Source of the DNA: a virus
Reading direction: 5' to 3' (one strand)
DNA: 23,030 bases
IMG/VR virus record: IMGVR_UViG_3300035698_006986
Coordinates: 1 to 23,030 of that record
The notes under the pieces are model-generated. The model ran no database searches, was not told the origin of the DNA, and was given only the letters and a program-made list of their open reading frames with translations. This document shows positions 794-13,258 of the stretch, in pieces. Each line of letters starts with the position of its first letter. The stretch's first letter is position 1. The translations under genes and the position numbers were made by a program.

Positions 794-1249
794 TTATCCT
801 ATGTTAATCCAACCGATTTCACTCTGTACTTGTAAAATTGCATCAATATCATTGTCGGTAAGACTGTTTACTGCTCCTGTAGAGCCATTAAGAATCCACT
901 TCTCATATCTTGGTGAAACATACCATTGTGTGATAGCTTTCTTTGATTTACCTTCAGCATCAAGATACTCTACTGCTGCAATAGCCTTGCCACTAGATAA
1001 AGAGCGCACTGCTATTTTTGTCTGTGTTCTAATAATGGTTCCCTTGCCAGTGGTCTTATCTTTTGCAGTATAAGAATAGTCAATACTGCTAAAATCGGTG
1101 GTAAGTGATACTAGCTTCTGTTCACGTTCTAACTTACCAGCATCATACTTTAATGCTCTGCCTTTTTCCTTATCAACAACCATTGTAATACCGTCAATCT
1201 CAATAATACGGTTACCCTTGCTGTCAAAACCCAGTTCTTTGACGTCCAT
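794..1249 (-). CDS. Hypothetical protein, 151 residues
   Basis: Complete minus-strand frame starting ATG at 1247-1249, preceded by an AGGGGC ribosome binding site eight bases upstream. The N-terminus (MDVKELGFDSKGNRIIEIDG) and the middle are rich in alternating hydrophobic/polar residues and glycines, suggesting a mainly beta protein; there is no signal peptide, membrane segment or catalytic motif I can identify. Antisense frames over the same region lack ribosome binding sites and are taken as shadows. It sits in the middle of the leftward cluster, with 37 bases between it and the preceding gene. Function unknown. Confidence 0.7.
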   Translation of the reverse strand: MDVKELGFDSKGNRIIEIDGITMVVDKEKGRALKYDAGKLEREQKLVSLTTDFSSIDYSYTAKDKTTGKGTIIRTQTKIAVRSLSSGKAIAAVEYLDAEGKSKKAITQWYVSPRYEKWILNGSTGAVNSLTDNDIDAILQVQSEIGWINIG

Positions 1250-1727: not shown

Positions 1728-1850
1728 TCACATATCATTGAATAGGTTTTCATATAACCATGCTATTTTAGTGATTAAGGCACTAATTATATATGATAAT
1801 ACCAAGAGCAATCCAATAATTGAAAATCCTATTAACAGTTCTTTTCCCAT
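1728..1850 (-). CDS. Small single-pass membrane protein
   Basis: A 40-residue minus-strand frame starting ATG at 1848-1850, whose A is shared with the stop codon of the upstream gene (TAATG overlap), indicating translational coupling. Residues about 5-28 form a continuous hydrophobic segment (LLIGFSIIGLLLVLSYIISA) long enough for one transmembrane helix, followed by a short charged/aromatic tail ending ENLFNDM. Its stop lies a few bases before the next ATG and overlaps that gene's ribosome binding site. A small inner-membrane peptide is likely; whether it acts in lysis, superinfection exclusion or something else cannot be told from the sequence. Confidence 0.6.
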   Translation of the reverse strand: MGKELLIGFSIIGLLLVLSYIISALITKIAWLYENLFNDM

Positions 1851-2023
1851 TATAGCCCACAGTCTATATAGAATATATCTTTATCATCAATAAGCTTGGC
1901 ATGATACAGTACTACTGCAATGGCAGTAACGCAATCAATCCATTGAATAAACTGTATGTAGTTACTAGACCTGTCTGGCATTACATTTTTTAATGCCTTT
2001 GATATTAACAGTTCTTGTTTCAT
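1850..2023 (-). CDS. Hypothetical protein, first gene of the leftward operon
   Basis: A 57-residue minus-strand frame starting MKQELLISKALKNVMPDRSS. The frame stays open further upstream to 2167, but that part runs through a 12-bp hairpin and has no ribosome binding site, whereas AGGGG stands five bases before the ATG at 2021-2023; I therefore choose this start. The centre (FIQWIDCVTAIAVVLYHA) is moderately hydrophobic but short and interrupted. Its stop overlaps the next start by one base. It appears to be the promoter-proximal gene of the leftward cluster, with a structured leader immediately upstream. Function unknown. Confidence 0.6.
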   Translation of the reverse strand: MKQELLISKALKNVMPDRSSNYIQFIQWIDCVTAIAVVLYHAKLIDDKDIFYIDCGL

Positions 2024-2044
2024 AAAAACCCCTAAGAAATAGGA

Positions 2045-2074
2045 AAGGCACCTAACAATTAAGTTAGGCGCCTT
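2045..2074 (-). terminator. 12-bp stem-loop before the leftward operon (attenuator or terminator)
   Basis: Arms AAGGCACCTAAC (2045-2056) and GTTAGGCGCCTT (2063-2074) enclose a six-base loop. In plus-strand RNA one position is an A-C mismatch; in minus-strand RNA the same position is a G-U pair, so the stem is continuous only in leftward RNA. Downstream on that strand the sequence is U-rich but interrupted (TTTCCTATTTCTT), followed by the AGGGG site of the first gene. It may act as a weak terminator, an attenuator, or the 3' end of a leftward RNA. Confidence 0.5.
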
Positions 2075-2083
2075 ATTATTGTT

Positions 2084-2190
2084 TGTTATCGTTTGCTGTC
2101 TGATAACATTAAGTACATTCAAAGCATTCCAGCTTAACGATGTACTTATCGTATAATAACGAGACACTTATGTCTATAAATGCCTCGATG
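2084..2190. other. Cluster of tandem hairpins
   Basis: Three further inverted repeats follow: TGTTATC/GATAACA (2084-2090 with 2102-2108), TAAGTACAT/ATGTACTTA (2110-2118 with 2140-2148, with an inner AAGC/GCTT helix at 2122-2135), and AGACA/TGTCT (2162-2166 with 2171-2175). The stems are perfect. Two inner closing positions (2091-2101, 2119-2139) would be G-U in plus-strand RNA. They could be part of the 5' leader of the leftward operon or an extension of the large RNA at 2340-2842. Confidence 0.4.
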
Positions 2191-2339
2191 CTAACATTGT
2201 TTGTTTTTTGCTTGGGTGATTAGTCCATTCGGGTAGTAATAATGCATTTTATACGATTATTTAACATATACTTACATTGCCAACGCTCACAGACAAAGTT
2301 ATTTAGACTTTATGGTGAACTATATAGCATATGTGGTGT

Positions 2340-2842
2340 CGGTTCTTTTTTGGAGTGACTCCACCAATCGCACGCCTTCGGCATCCCGCTATTAACGGTT
2401 ATCCTCATTTGCATTTTGCGATGCACTTTTGCCTTAATAGTACGCAATCAATCCGGTGCGCTTCCTACCTATTAGGCTAATTACTACCTGTCAAGCGATT
2501 TGTGAATAAGAATCCTCATGTATCCTATTGTTGCTTCATACCTGTGACCATTGCCCAGTCTGCTTGCCGTGTTATCCAGCCGTGATTGCCTTTAACACGA
2601 TTGCACAAGCTATCTGTCAACCTTTGGTGCAGTATATATTTTAAGGACAATTCCTTAAAAGTCAACGAAGCACAAACCTATGTCGCCACCCGATTGAATT
2701 AAAGTGCCTAATGAGTGACGGCACTAATGTACGTTCGCTTGTGTACATCAGACAAGACAATAACCATCTGCATTTGTACAGGCTTTGGACTGTTCCTAAC
2801 AATAATTGTTAGAAGCTGCATTAATGCCCGAAGGCATTTTTT
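2340..2842 (+). ncRNA. Candidate large structured non-coding RNA
   Basis: No credible protein gene is present, yet the region is GC-richer (133 of 300 bases, 44%, by hand count over 2341-2640) than the AT-rich coding DNA, and contains ordered hairpins: TGGAG/CTCCA (2351-2363); TGCAT/ATGCA (2410-2425); a 13-bp composite helix (2431-2477: GCC/GGC, TAATAG/CTATTA, CGCA/TGCG); a 12-bp composite helix (2562-2610: GCTTG/CAAGC, CGTGTTA/TAACACG); a 9-bp helix (2639-2660); AGTGCC/GGCACT (2703-2725); ATGTAC/GTACAT (2727-2748); CTAACAA/TTGTTAG (2796-2812); and a terminator at 2823-2842. The plus strand is preferred because the U-tract follows the last hairpin on that strand, but wobble pairs do not settle the strand. 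The 5' end is arbitrary; it may reach back to about 2084. Large ornate phage RNAs such as ROOL and GOLLD are precedents; I cannot verify membership by eye. Confidence 0.4.
2823..2842 (+). terminator. Rho-independent terminator
   Basis: AATGCC (2823-2828), loop CGAA, GGCATT (2833-2838), then TTTT on the plus strand. On the minus strand the loop becomes the stable C(UUCG)G but no U-tract follows, so it is a rightward terminator. It marks the probable 3' end of the structured RNA and of any rightward transcription from the left. Confidence 0.6.
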
Positions 2843-2903
2843 AGTTCATTGCTGGAATTAAAACAACAAAGATAAGAAACGCAATGCATAGTGCAATTAA
2901 CAT
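2841..2903 (-). CDS. Possible 20-residue hydrophobic peptide
   Basis: Minus-strand ATG at 2901-2903 opens a frame encoding MLIALCIAFLIFVVLIPAMN and stopping at 2841-2843. A GGGG ribosome binding site lies six bases upstream, spaced like those of the genes at 794-1249 and 1850-2023. The peptide is almost entirely hydrophobic, enough for one membrane helix, with length and composition resembling Ibs-type toxic peptides of type I toxin-antitoxin loci. The stop coincides with the U-tract of the plus-strand terminator. So short a frame can arise by chance; the ribosome binding site and extreme composition are the only support. An in-frame ATG four codons earlier has no ribosome binding site. Confidence 0.35.
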   Translation of the reverse strand: MLIALCIAFLIFVVLIPAMN

Positions 2904-2927
2904 AATAAACCCCATCTATTAAAGTGA

Positions 2928-2954
2928 TCATAAACTCGTTCATAAACTCGTTCA
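2928..2954. repeat. Tandem 12-bp direct repeat
   Basis: TCATAAACTCGT occurs twice back to back (2928-2939 and 2940-2951), followed by a partial third unit TCA. It lies between the hydrophobic peptide frame and the control region further right. It may be a protein-binding site or a slippage duplication. Confidence 0.7.
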
Positions 2955-2987
2955 CTTACCTACCCACAAACTAGCCTGACATCTTAC

Positions 2988-3094
2988 CCGAAACCTAAAA
3001 CGTTTGCCGGTGTCTATCAAAGTAGACTAGTGAAACAGGCTGAAGTGTGAAAGAACGTACCAACATTGACCCCGGAACCTAAAACAGGCTGAAG
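2988..3094. repeat. Two-part direct repeats in the intergenic control region
   Basis: Element A, CCGRAACCTAAAAC, is found at 2988-3001 and 3072-3085 (one mismatch). Element B, AAACAGGCTGAAG, is found identically at 3033-3045 and 3082-3094. In the right-hand copy A and B are fused, sharing AAAC; in the left-hand copy they are separated by 31 bases that contain a small hairpin (GTCTA/TAGAC, 3012-3027). No gene covers this stretch. Such arrangements fit protein-binding iterons or a duplicated site interrupted by an insertion. Confidence 0.6.
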
Positions 3095-3179
3095 GAATCA
3101 ATAAAGGGTCGTGTGTGCATGCGTAATCCTTTATATGCACTCCAAGGCTGCCAGATGGGGGGTGTATCCCATTGAAGGT

Positions 3180-3204
3180 GGGGTGGGGTGGGTGCTGTGA
3201 TGGG
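3180..3204 (+). other. G-quadruplex-type G tract
   Basis: Four G runs on the plus strand: 3180-3183 GGGG, 3185-3188 GGGG, 3190-3192 GGG and 3202-3204 GGG, with loops of 1, 1 and 9 bases. This satisfies the usual sequence pattern for an intramolecular G-quadruplex and stands out in an AT-rich genome. Another G6 run lies just upstream (3157-3162). Confidence 0.5.
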
Positions 3205-3238
3205 AGAAAGGTAATCCACGAATCACAAACGTCAAAAC

Positions 3239-3269
3239 ATGACTTCTATACAATAGTCTATAAATAGAC
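3239..3269 (+). promoter_or_regulatory. Weak promoter-like site with overlapping palindrome
   Basis: ATGACTTCTA at 3239-3248 matches 9 of 10 bases of the promoter 10-mer TTGACTTCTA. A TATAAA lies at 3259-3264, only 14 bp downstream of the -35 position, and at the usual 17-bp spacing only AAATAG is present. The candidate -10 area is covered by the inverted repeat GTCTAT/ATAGAC (3256-3261 with 3264-3269). It may be a degenerate or repressed promoter, or an operator for the promoter at 3329. Confidence 0.3.
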
Positions 3270-3278
3270 AACTATCTA

Positions 3279-3315
3279 GTGCATCTTGGCGATCACAAGT
3301 GCATTTGGGCGATTA
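3279..3315. promoter_or_regulatory. Paired 17-bp direct repeats upstream of promoter (activator or repressor site)
   Basis: GTGCATCTTGGCGATCA (3279-3295) and GTGCATTTGGGCGATTA (3299-3315) match at 14 of 17 positions and start 20 bp apart, two helical turns. The right copy ends 13 bp before the -35 element at 3329. This geometry is typical of a dimeric regulator binding on one face of the DNA next to a promoter. Confidence 0.5.
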
Positions 3316-3328
3316 ATTTCCATAATCC

Positions 3329-3357
3329 TTGACTTCTAGAGTGGTTTTTATTATATT
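3329..3357 (+). promoter_or_regulatory. Promoter, TTGACTTCTA family
   Basis: TTGACT at 3329-3334, 17-bp spacer, TATATT at 3352-3357. The first ten bases TTGACTTCTA are identical to three other promoters in the window (4007, 8305, 20656). A start about 7 bp after the -10 would give a short leader to the gene at 3390. Confidence 0.65.
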
Positions 3358-3389
3358 TTAGATCTAAAATCTAGCATAAAGGAGTATCT

Positions 3390-3572
3390 ATGACAACAGT
3401 AAATGTACCAAAGACCTGTCAACTATGTCATGGTGAGTTGATAATACAGACAATTCAACGAATGAGTGCAAGTAAGCCAGCCTATGTGTGTCGATGTAAG
3501 GAATGTGGGTACACTGAAGGTGATGAGTTTAAGACAAAAGAAGAAGCAATAGCCTTAAAAAACGCCAAGTAA
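3390..3572 (+). CDS. Small zinc-ribbon protein
   Basis: A 60-residue protein starting MTTVNVPKTCQLCHGELIIQ, with an AAAGGAG ribosome binding site a few bases upstream and its own promoter at 3329. It contains CQLC (residues 10-13) and CRCKECG (residues 34-40), the two-knuckle arrangement of a zinc ribbon, separated by about 20 residues; the end is charged and helical (DEFKTKEEAIALKNAK). Zinc ribbons of this size often bind nucleic acid or modulate transcription, but the particular role cannot be assigned. It is a single-gene unit between two long non-coding control regions, which hints at an early or regulatory function. Confidence 0.75.
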   Translation: MTTVNVPKTCQLCHGELIIQTIQRMSASKPAYVCRCKECGYTEGDEFKTKEEAIALKNAK

Positions 3573-4546: not shown

Positions 4547-4622
4547 TGATCTGTAGCTTAATTGGCAGAGCAATGGTCTGTTAAACCATCGGTTGTAGGT
4601 TCAAGTCCTACCAGATCAGCCA
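4547..4622 (+). tRNA. tRNA-Asn (GUU)
   Basis: A full 76-nt cloverleaf: acceptor TGATCTG (4547-4553) pairing with CAGATCA, D-arm GCTT/GAGC, anticodon stem ATGGT/ACCAT with loop CTGTTAA (anticodon GTT), T-arm GTAGG-TTCAAGT-CCTAC, discriminator G and encoded CCA at 4620-4622. It lies between the DUF1353 gene and the next coding gene in the same direction, so it is probably processed out of the operon transcript. Phage tRNAs usually supplement host codon usage; AAT/AAC codons are frequent in the surrounding genes. Confidence 0.97.
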
Positions 4623-11914: not shown

Positions 11915-13258
11915 ATGGCTAATGTAACTACAGTTGGATCAAGCGAACTTAGTTCACCGGTTCTCGCTGGTGGAATCACCAATGCGAACATTACTACTAC
12001 AACTACACGTCCGTATTCTCTTGCATCTATGGATGTAGATACTGGACTCACGTATGATGCGATTAATCGTAAACTGCAAATTGAGTCTACGCTTGACGCT
12101 GTGTTTGCTGATGTAGGTACTGATGTAGTGTTTAATGGTAAGAAAATGTCAATCCCAGATGCGGTTGTCATTCGCATGTCATCCGAGAAGGGTGCTAAGA
12201 AACAAGTTCTTCCTATGATGAACCCACTTACTGGCCCCGGTGTTGGTGGAACGGCAGAAGATCAGCAGGGTGAAGAACGGGATCGTACTCTTCAGTATCA
12301 GAATGTGTATTACAACGAGTATTCACAGGCTGTCACTGGTGAAAAATGGGGTGTGAACTATAATCAGTTGGAAGTTTTCAACTATTATGCACAGAATCAG
12401 CCCTCGTTGTCTCGTTGGTTTGCAGAAGATGAAGACAAACAGTACCACGAAGCTGTTCTTAAGACTTATTCATGGCCGCTGTTGAAGACTGGTACTGGCC
12501 TCACGGATGGTACGGACAATCTGTATAATCCTAATATCTATGTAGCTAACACAGCTCTTGGATCACAGCCAGCATTCAGTACAACACCTGCAACTCAACG
12601 CACCAACATTGATACTGCTATTGCTGCTGCTGCTACTGGTACGGCTGGAGTGAATGCTAATATTGATTTGGATAACCTTCTTGCTATTGATTACTACGCA
12701 CAGAATACAAAACGTATTATGCCTGTAACCATTGGTGGAAAAAGATCGTATGTTCTATTGCTTCCTTCTCCTCAGTATCACAAGTTGCTTCAGGACAGCA
12801 AGGGTCAGCTTGGTGATGTATGGACGAAGGTAACTCAGCTTTCTGATGAAGAGCAGAATTATCCGGGCATTATCGGTCGTGTTAAGAGTCTTGTTATCGT
12901 AGAGGATCAGCGTTATCCTACTATCGTTACTGATGGGGCTGGTACACACACTGTTGAGTACGTAGAACCGGGTAATGATGACAGCCGTAACAAATCAGTA
13001 TACAACAGTTCAACGAACTTGGGAGTTGATGTTGGATGTTTGCTTGGTGCTGGTGCTGTTATTGACTGGAAAGTAACTCCTCTGCACTTTGAGATGGAAT
13101 CTACTTCCTACGGTAAAAAGTATGGACAGGGTGCATTTATCGAACGTGGTATTCAGATGGGTTCACGTTTTGATATTGATACTGCTGGCAATGCTATCAA
13201 GAACTTTGGTTCGATGGTATGTCTCTGGAGTGCTACGAGTATCGTAACTGTCGCATAA
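11915..13258 (+). CDS. Major capsid protein
   Basis: 447 residues, AAAGGA ribosome binding site. Begins MANVTTVGSSELSSPVLAGG with a Thr-rich stretch, then sequences such as GKKMSIPDAVVIRM, YYNEYSQAVTGEKWGVNYNQ and SLSRWFAEDEDKQYHEAV that resemble the DUF4043/N4 gp56-type capsid group, and ends in SFxxGAFIERG-like and CLWSATSIVTVA segments. Codons are slightly more GC-rich and biased than in neighbours, as expected for the most abundant protein. It would form the icosahedral shell (HK97-type fold by family inference). A 9-bp hairpin follows the stop. Confidence 0.85.
   Translation: MANVTTVGSSELSSPVLAGGITNANITTTTTRPYSLASMDVDTGLTYDAINRKLQIESTLDAVFADVGTDVVFNGKKMSIPDAVVIRMSSEKGAKKQVLPMMNPLTGPGVGGTAEDQQGEERDRTLQYQNVYYNEYSQAVTGEKWGVNYNQLEVFNYYAQNQPSLSRWFAEDEDKQYHEAVLKTYSWPLLKTGTGLTDGTDNLYNPNIYVANTALGSQPAFSTTPATQRTNIDTAIAAAATGTAGVNANIDLDNLLAIDYYAQNTKRIMPVTIGGKRSYVLLLPSPQYHKLLQDSKGQLGDVWTKVTQLSDEEQNYPGIIGRVKSLVIVEDQRYPTIVTDGAGTHTVEYVEPGNDDSRNKSVYNSSTNLGVDVGCLLGAGAVIDWKVTPLHFEMESTSYGKKYGQGAFIERGIQMGSRFDIDTAGNAIKNFGSMVCLWSATSIVTVA

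Follow-up and report, generated by a model that had tools for sequence, protein, structure and literature searches.

The window analysed here is the whole of a 23,030-base IMG/VR virus record (IMGVR_UViG_3300035698_006986), a phage with its terminase, portal and major head genes on the right side. Genes run leftward to the left of ~2170 and rightward to the right of 3390, and between the two blocks is the longest gene-free gap of the window, 1222 bases at 2168-3389, in which no convincing gene is found. A preliminary description of 2340-2842 had drawn attention to the missing genes and to a local richness in GC, and both observations hold: the GC content of 2340-2760 is 43.7% as compared to 37.4% window-wide. 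Read on the minus strand, the region contains in order a short membrane-peptide open reading frame (ORF), a hairpin, a type-P1 twister ribozyme, ~700 non-coding bases and an intrinsic terminator; leftward from 2822 no convincing gene is met before 2022, where a 57-residue ORF ends the gene-free part of this strand (Table 1). BLASTN of the gene-free region against phage records gave no match.

A number of other features are seen in the same neighborhood. The cumulative GC-skew reaches its minimum at ~2900-3100, between the divergent gene blocks, and a G-rich run (GGTGGGGTGGGGTGGG) at 3160-3200, near this minimum, may be an origin or a G-quadruplex. A promoter-like motif, TTGACTTCT...TTATATT, recurs before rightward genes at 3329, 4007, 8305 and 20656 on the plus strand and is common to the related records L099, L100, L101 and L117. 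A tRNA-Asn gene is located at 4547-4619 (plus strand); tRNAs in the same neighborhood are also found in the relatives L042 (Gln, Asn, Thr) and L117 (two tRNAs).

Table 1. Features of the leftward unit, in window coordinates
Feature	Position	Strand	Remarks
20-aa single-membrane-span ORF (MLIALCIAFLIFVVLIPAMN)	2841-2903	-	immediately 5' of the ribozyme; may start further upstream, at 2915
Hairpin AAUGCC-UUCG-GGCAUU	2823-2838	-	its last base is the base directly 5' of the predicted cleavage 2823|2822
Type-P1 twister ribozyme	2760-2827	-	predicted cleavage 2823|2822; Rfam RF03160, own model, covariation
Proposed mature non-coding RNA, ~780 nt	2045-2822	-	twister cleavage to intrinsic terminator; fold, closing helix, syntenic L042 unit
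Closing helix, 5' arm (GUUAUUGU-C-UUGUCUGAUG)	2746-2764	-	directly after the twister core; 18-bp long-range helix
Internal hairpin GCUUGU/GCAAGC + CGUGUUA/UAACACG	2562-2610	-	12-bp helix of the preliminary description; pair probability 0.92-0.98
Two strong 3'-proximal hairpins (2187-2160, 2148-2110)	2110-2187	-	
Closing helix, 3' arm (UAUCAGACAG-CAA-ACGAUAAC)	2085-2105	-	directly before the terminator; pair probability 0.91-0.98
Intrinsic terminator	2045-2074	-	12-bp stem, then TCCTATTTCT
57-aa ORF (MKQELLISKALK...)	1850-2022	-	directly after the terminator

The twister ribozyme and the hairpin at its predicted cleavage site

A permissive Rfam scan of 1900-3400 yields a single strong match, to the twister-P1 family (RF03160) at 2827-2760 on the minus strand (54.1 bits, E 5.7e-11). 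The score is below the family gathering cut-off of 67.2 bits but counts as normal, because clear, textbook phage twisters score 56.1-59.7 bits against the same cut-off; a model based on 28 phage twisters, not including that of the window, scores the element at 63.6 bits (E 3e-17). Weak matches in the scan to trpB, EF3314_EF3315, CrcZ and others were below cut-off and without context, and are attributed to chance. In a side observation of wider bearing, every phage twister tested here (38-60 bits) falls short of the RF03160 gathering score and is thus missed by default annotation.

The conserved twister core is present (UAAyGCnGC ... GUCCnAAGCC ... AAAnGCnGAnGG) together with stems P2 (UGCA/UGCA) and P4 (ACAG/CUGU), which are paired in 98% of the cells of the family alignment. 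Both pseudoknots are intact, T1 as CCA/UGG and T2 as GC/GC, and across 32 twister sequences these are 96-100% paired with compensatory changes. With the pseudoknots included, 91.9% of the cells pair in the 32 twisters versus 67.3% on shuffling, and the covariation score of 0.523 compares with 0.141 for shuffled alignments (0/500) and at most 0.10 for slid ones. A search of IMG/VR with a degenerate core pattern yielded 51 stretches, and the two free pseudoknot positions pair in all 51 of these independently found sites (C-G in 39, A-T in 8, T-A in 4); the variable pair of the window, A-U (A-T in DNA), falls within this perfect exchange. Stem P1 of the window has two of its four positions unpaired (a G-U and an A-U pair plus two mismatches), and its strands are in use elsewhere: the upstream hairpin takes up the 5' strand and the closing helix the 3' strand. 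Of the stems of the family P1 is the least conserved, and it does not appear to be strictly required, since it pairs in 74% of the cells of the alignment and P1-less twisters cleave at almost wild-type rate (PMC5408937). Judged from its core, P2, P4 and both pseudoknots, the element at 2827-2760 is almost certainly a twister ribozyme. It resembles the type-P1 family in core bases, in P2, P3 and P4, in both pseudoknots and in the UAA of the cleavage site, and differs from it in the near absence of P1 and in a score below the strict Rfam cut-off, the latter as in the other phage twisters tested.

Cleavage by this ribozyme would leave a 5'-AAUG... end that opens a 37-residue frame (2821-2708, minus strand), and a short leaderless peptide might be considered as the product of the locus, inasmuch as the syntenic relative L042 has a 36-residue frame at the same place. 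Such a product is hardly credible: the AUG and the residues shared by the two phages are dictated by the conserved core of the ribozyme and fall within stem P2, the frame is without a ribosome-binding site, and a peptide of this size accounts for only 110 of the 780 bases.

The bases at 2823-2838 had been described as a plus-strand terminator, and a terminator-like hairpin is indeed present on that strand; on the minus strand, however, it is the hairpin that ends at the predicted twister cleavage site. A 14-bp pairing of this hairpin with 2372-2386 was set aside, since it would be intermolecular after cleavage and both of its strands form hairpins of their own. The arrangement is common among phage twisters. 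A strong hairpin ends at the cut in 30 of 58 distinct phage twister sites (52%), compared to 5.8% and 5.7% in two positional controls, and these are not ordinary terminators, because a T-run follows in only 1 of the 30. Cleavage would leave the upstream message with a 3' end capped by a hairpin, and the phage sites with twister and hairpin together suggest ribozyme-made, hairpin-capped mRNA 3' ends. Several twisters on the same strand of a single locus are seen at L003, L008, L015, L023, L025, L034 and L036, with three in ~1 kb at L003 and four at L008.

Most of the phage twisters found sit in short intergenic gaps with a hairpin just upstream, often several per locus. This setting favors a simple reading of the window in which the twister serves only as operon punctuation, i.e. 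it parts two mRNAs, and the next ~700 bases are a long, loosely structured leader of the following gene or plain intergenic DNA. Such a role is rather unlikely to be the whole account, for reasons that come from the downstream structure and from the related phages, although there too some of the evidence is on its side.

Structure and strand of the proposed downstream RNA

The stretch between the predicted cleavage site and the terminator is bounded by a long-range helix whose arms follow the twister core directly and precede the terminator directly. The duplex of these arms is calculated at -22.2 kcal/mol versus -10.5 +/- 2.6 kcal/mol for shuffles, and is matched by 1 of 1000 shuffles when 40-base arms are used and by 0 of 1000 with 60-base arms. 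A closing helix beyond chance speaks against the punctuation reading. The full minus-strand unit (2845-2035) folds with a z of -5.6, much of which is due to the twister, the 3' hairpins and the terminator; without the twister and terminator (2085-2764) z is -3.1, with 0 of 32 shuffles as good, and for the inner part that is also without the 3' hairpins (2190-2764) z is -1.4 and structure is not significant. The frame of the RNA is on this account well supported and its interior is not. Inner 400-nt windows have z values of -1.1 to -2.0, within the range of a minus-strand coding control (mean -1.0, s.d. 1.1), and a local 150-nt fold scan shows nothing special in 2326-2700. The antisense also folds well (z -2.3 for the plus strand of the window). 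An interior that folds near chance speaks for the punctuation reading.

The preliminary description had instead proposed a large plus-strand RNA, either a member of the ROOL or GOLLD kind or a new class, ending at the 2823-2838 hairpin. A hairpin with a T-run at this position makes a fair plus-strand terminator and a tRNA gene is nearby, but the plus-strand RNA is highly improbable. Its minimum free energy is -122.5 kcal/mol (z -1.2), no better than dinucleotide shuffles, of which 13 of 100 fold as well, whereas the minus strand gives -146.1 kcal/mol (z -2.9), a value reached by 1 in 100 shuffles. A fold on a par with shuffled controls had been named in the preliminary description as grounds for refutation, and for the strand it proposed this is the outcome. 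The twister marks the minus strand as the sense strand, and the left end is without a good plus-strand promoter. Nor is there a match to either RNA on either strand. For ROOL (RF03087) none was found at E <= 5 in 1900-3400 or at E <= 10 in 14 records, a search in which control genomes gave no match either, and for GOLLD (RF02032) no covariance-model match was found at E <= 10 on either strand of the window and 13 related records. Two helices had also been singled out, at 2431-2477 and 2562-2610. Inverted repeats are found at both places; only the latter is robust in the ensemble, on the minus strand, and the former is one of several alternatives that is missing from the plus-strand minimum-energy fold. 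A large structured phage RNA is nevertheless plausible, on the minus strand and starting at the twister that had been overlooked, with a left end that reaches ~2045, ~300 bases beyond the end first assigned. The object first described is thus real, but its strand and its ends were wrong.

Within the stretch is a perfect palindrome, TTTTAAGGA-N4-TCCTTAAAA, at 2639-2660, with 9-bp arms and unique in the window, which may be an operator or an RNA hairpin. A leftward promoter-like site at 2665-2638, inside the RNA, overlaps this palindrome and could start a shorter transcript; its -35 resembles the recurring TTGACTTCT promoter of the phage. Together with the position between divergent gene blocks at the GC-skew minimum, these elements are of the sort expected in a DNA control region or replication origin, with promoters, operators and an origin, where the hairpins would be operators. 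As an explanation of the whole stretch this is improbable, since it does not account for a twister with intact pseudoknots or for the same twister-terminator frame in L042, although such functions can coexist with an RNA.

Related phages

Searches with TerL, portal and MCP in IMG/VR and genomes gave few relatives, and by its terminase and portal the phage belongs to a small undescribed lineage. Several close relatives are cut off before the region, and the records L099, L100, L119, L129 and L002 do not cover it. In L042 (also L101; IMGVR_UViG_3300026120_000001), a record with a 51% identical terminase that was also found independently by the twister pattern, the region is flanked on one side by homologues of terS, p4871, p5597, p5770 and p8352 and on the other by a homologue of window 794-1249 (31%, E 2e-13). 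On the strand opposite the terminase there follow in order a 20-residue membrane ORF at 12039-12101 (MIEAIVGSFLLFLVVSMCNR), of the same place, length and type as that of the window and with a good ribosome-binding site, a hairpin (CCCCUUAACUGGGG), a twister at 12117-12175, ~415-420 gene-free bases, a terminator followed by TCTTTTTTT, and a gene. This order matches that of the window. The full L042 unit folds with a z of -5.6, and of -2.8 without the twister and terminator; the L042 antisense, at z -5.1, is better than the sense strand, and the closing helix of L042 is not significant (42 of 200 shuffles). Elsewhere in this record (L101 ~3230-2670, minus strand) a gene of the leftward block contains many short GNVSDICGNVSGV-like repeats.

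In the more distant L118 (portal 42%) there is one twister in the whole record (E 4.5e-5). This element, at 2303-2357 on the minus strand, is very divergent, with P2 and both pseudoknots kept via compensatory changes. It is located at the 3' edge of a ~650-base gene-free stretch, directly ahead of the ribosome-binding site of the gene that follows, and the stretch without its twister folds with a z of -3.7. The twister is thus at the 5' end of the stretch in the window and L042 and at the 3' end in L118; in L117 the same junction is occupied by a structured gene-free stretch that has no twister. A promoter-like element, TTTC(A/T)ACATA...CTCTATATGGTGTA, is repeated before leftward units of L118 (~4850, 3695 and 3005, minus strand), with one copy at the 5' border of the large non-coding stretch.

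Outside the twister there is no alignable sequence among the window, L042 and L118, whose RNAs are homologous in position only, and the words shared by the RNAs of these and of L117 are at chance level; a weak match between L117 and L118 (E 0.004) is in differing structural contexts and is not claimed as a relation. The lack of a common sequence again agrees with the punctuation reading, against which there is the terminator that separates the stretch from the gene after it, in the window as in L042, and the long gene-free stretch that is kept in four related phages despite a compact genome. In three records there is one twister per record, always on the leftward strand and adjoining a long gene-free stretch. 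These three cases suggest that the job of the twister in this lineage may be to part a large RNA from a coding neighbor, on either side.

Proposed processing and known systems

On the basis of these features we infer that the stretch is transcribed leftward, into a phage RNA in which the membrane-peptide ORF, hairpin, twister, non-coding bases and terminator would follow one another, and that the twister cuts this RNA between U 2823 and A 2822. The 3' end of the upstream mRNA would then be formed by the blunt C(UUCG)G hairpin, which likely shields it from 3' exonucleases. The downstream product would be a structured RNA of ~780 nt that bears a 5'-OH, finishes at the terminator and is held closed by the 18-bp long-range helix. 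Release by a twister of a large phage RNA from a co-transcribed mRNA is probably what the locus encodes. The large RNA is likely a functional molecule in such a scheme, and the best guess as to its job is that of an ornate RNA with a structural or scaffold role. More tentatively, and with the balance leaning somewhat the other way, it may represent a class of large phage RNA that is new and has no relation to ROOL or GOLLD, and that this undescribed lineage carries at the junction of the leftward and rightward gene blocks, with a mature end (the 5' end in two phages, the 3' end in a third) made by the adjoining twister that frees it from co-transcribed mRNA.

To our knowledge the natural roles of twister ribozymes are largely unknown. 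The lineage described here has a twister bordering a long non-coding RNA, and about half of phage twisters in the wider set directly follow a hairpin that would cap a 3' end; a simple role is accordingly offered, namely RNA-encoded processing in place of host nucleases that separates messages and frees structured RNAs, among twisters that the Rfam cut-off for the twister-P1 family hides. The ribozyme-separated phage gene pairs (twister loci L003-L053) share with the window the hairpin directly upstream of the cleavage site; they differ in that a gene mostly follows within ~30-350 bases, in place of the ~700 non-coding bases and terminator of the window.

In the open-licence papers searched, no large phage RNA with a twister at its boundary was found to be described. 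ROOL and GOLLD are large phage RNAs (PMC12286853), and the window RNA is like them in being phage-borne, in its size class, in a fold predicted to be intricate and in having tRNA genes not far away; it is unlike them in having no covariance-model match, no known conserved sequence and a built-in ribozyme at its end. The theta (HDV-like) ribozymes adjoin phage tRNAs, at the tRNA ends (PMC10879173), and would be the closest functional analogue of the arrangement, as small self-cleaving ribozymes that bound a structured phage RNA and make its end by cleavage. The fold of the theta ribozyme is different, however, and in the window the partner would be a large RNA rather than a tRNA, with cleavage making its 5' end.
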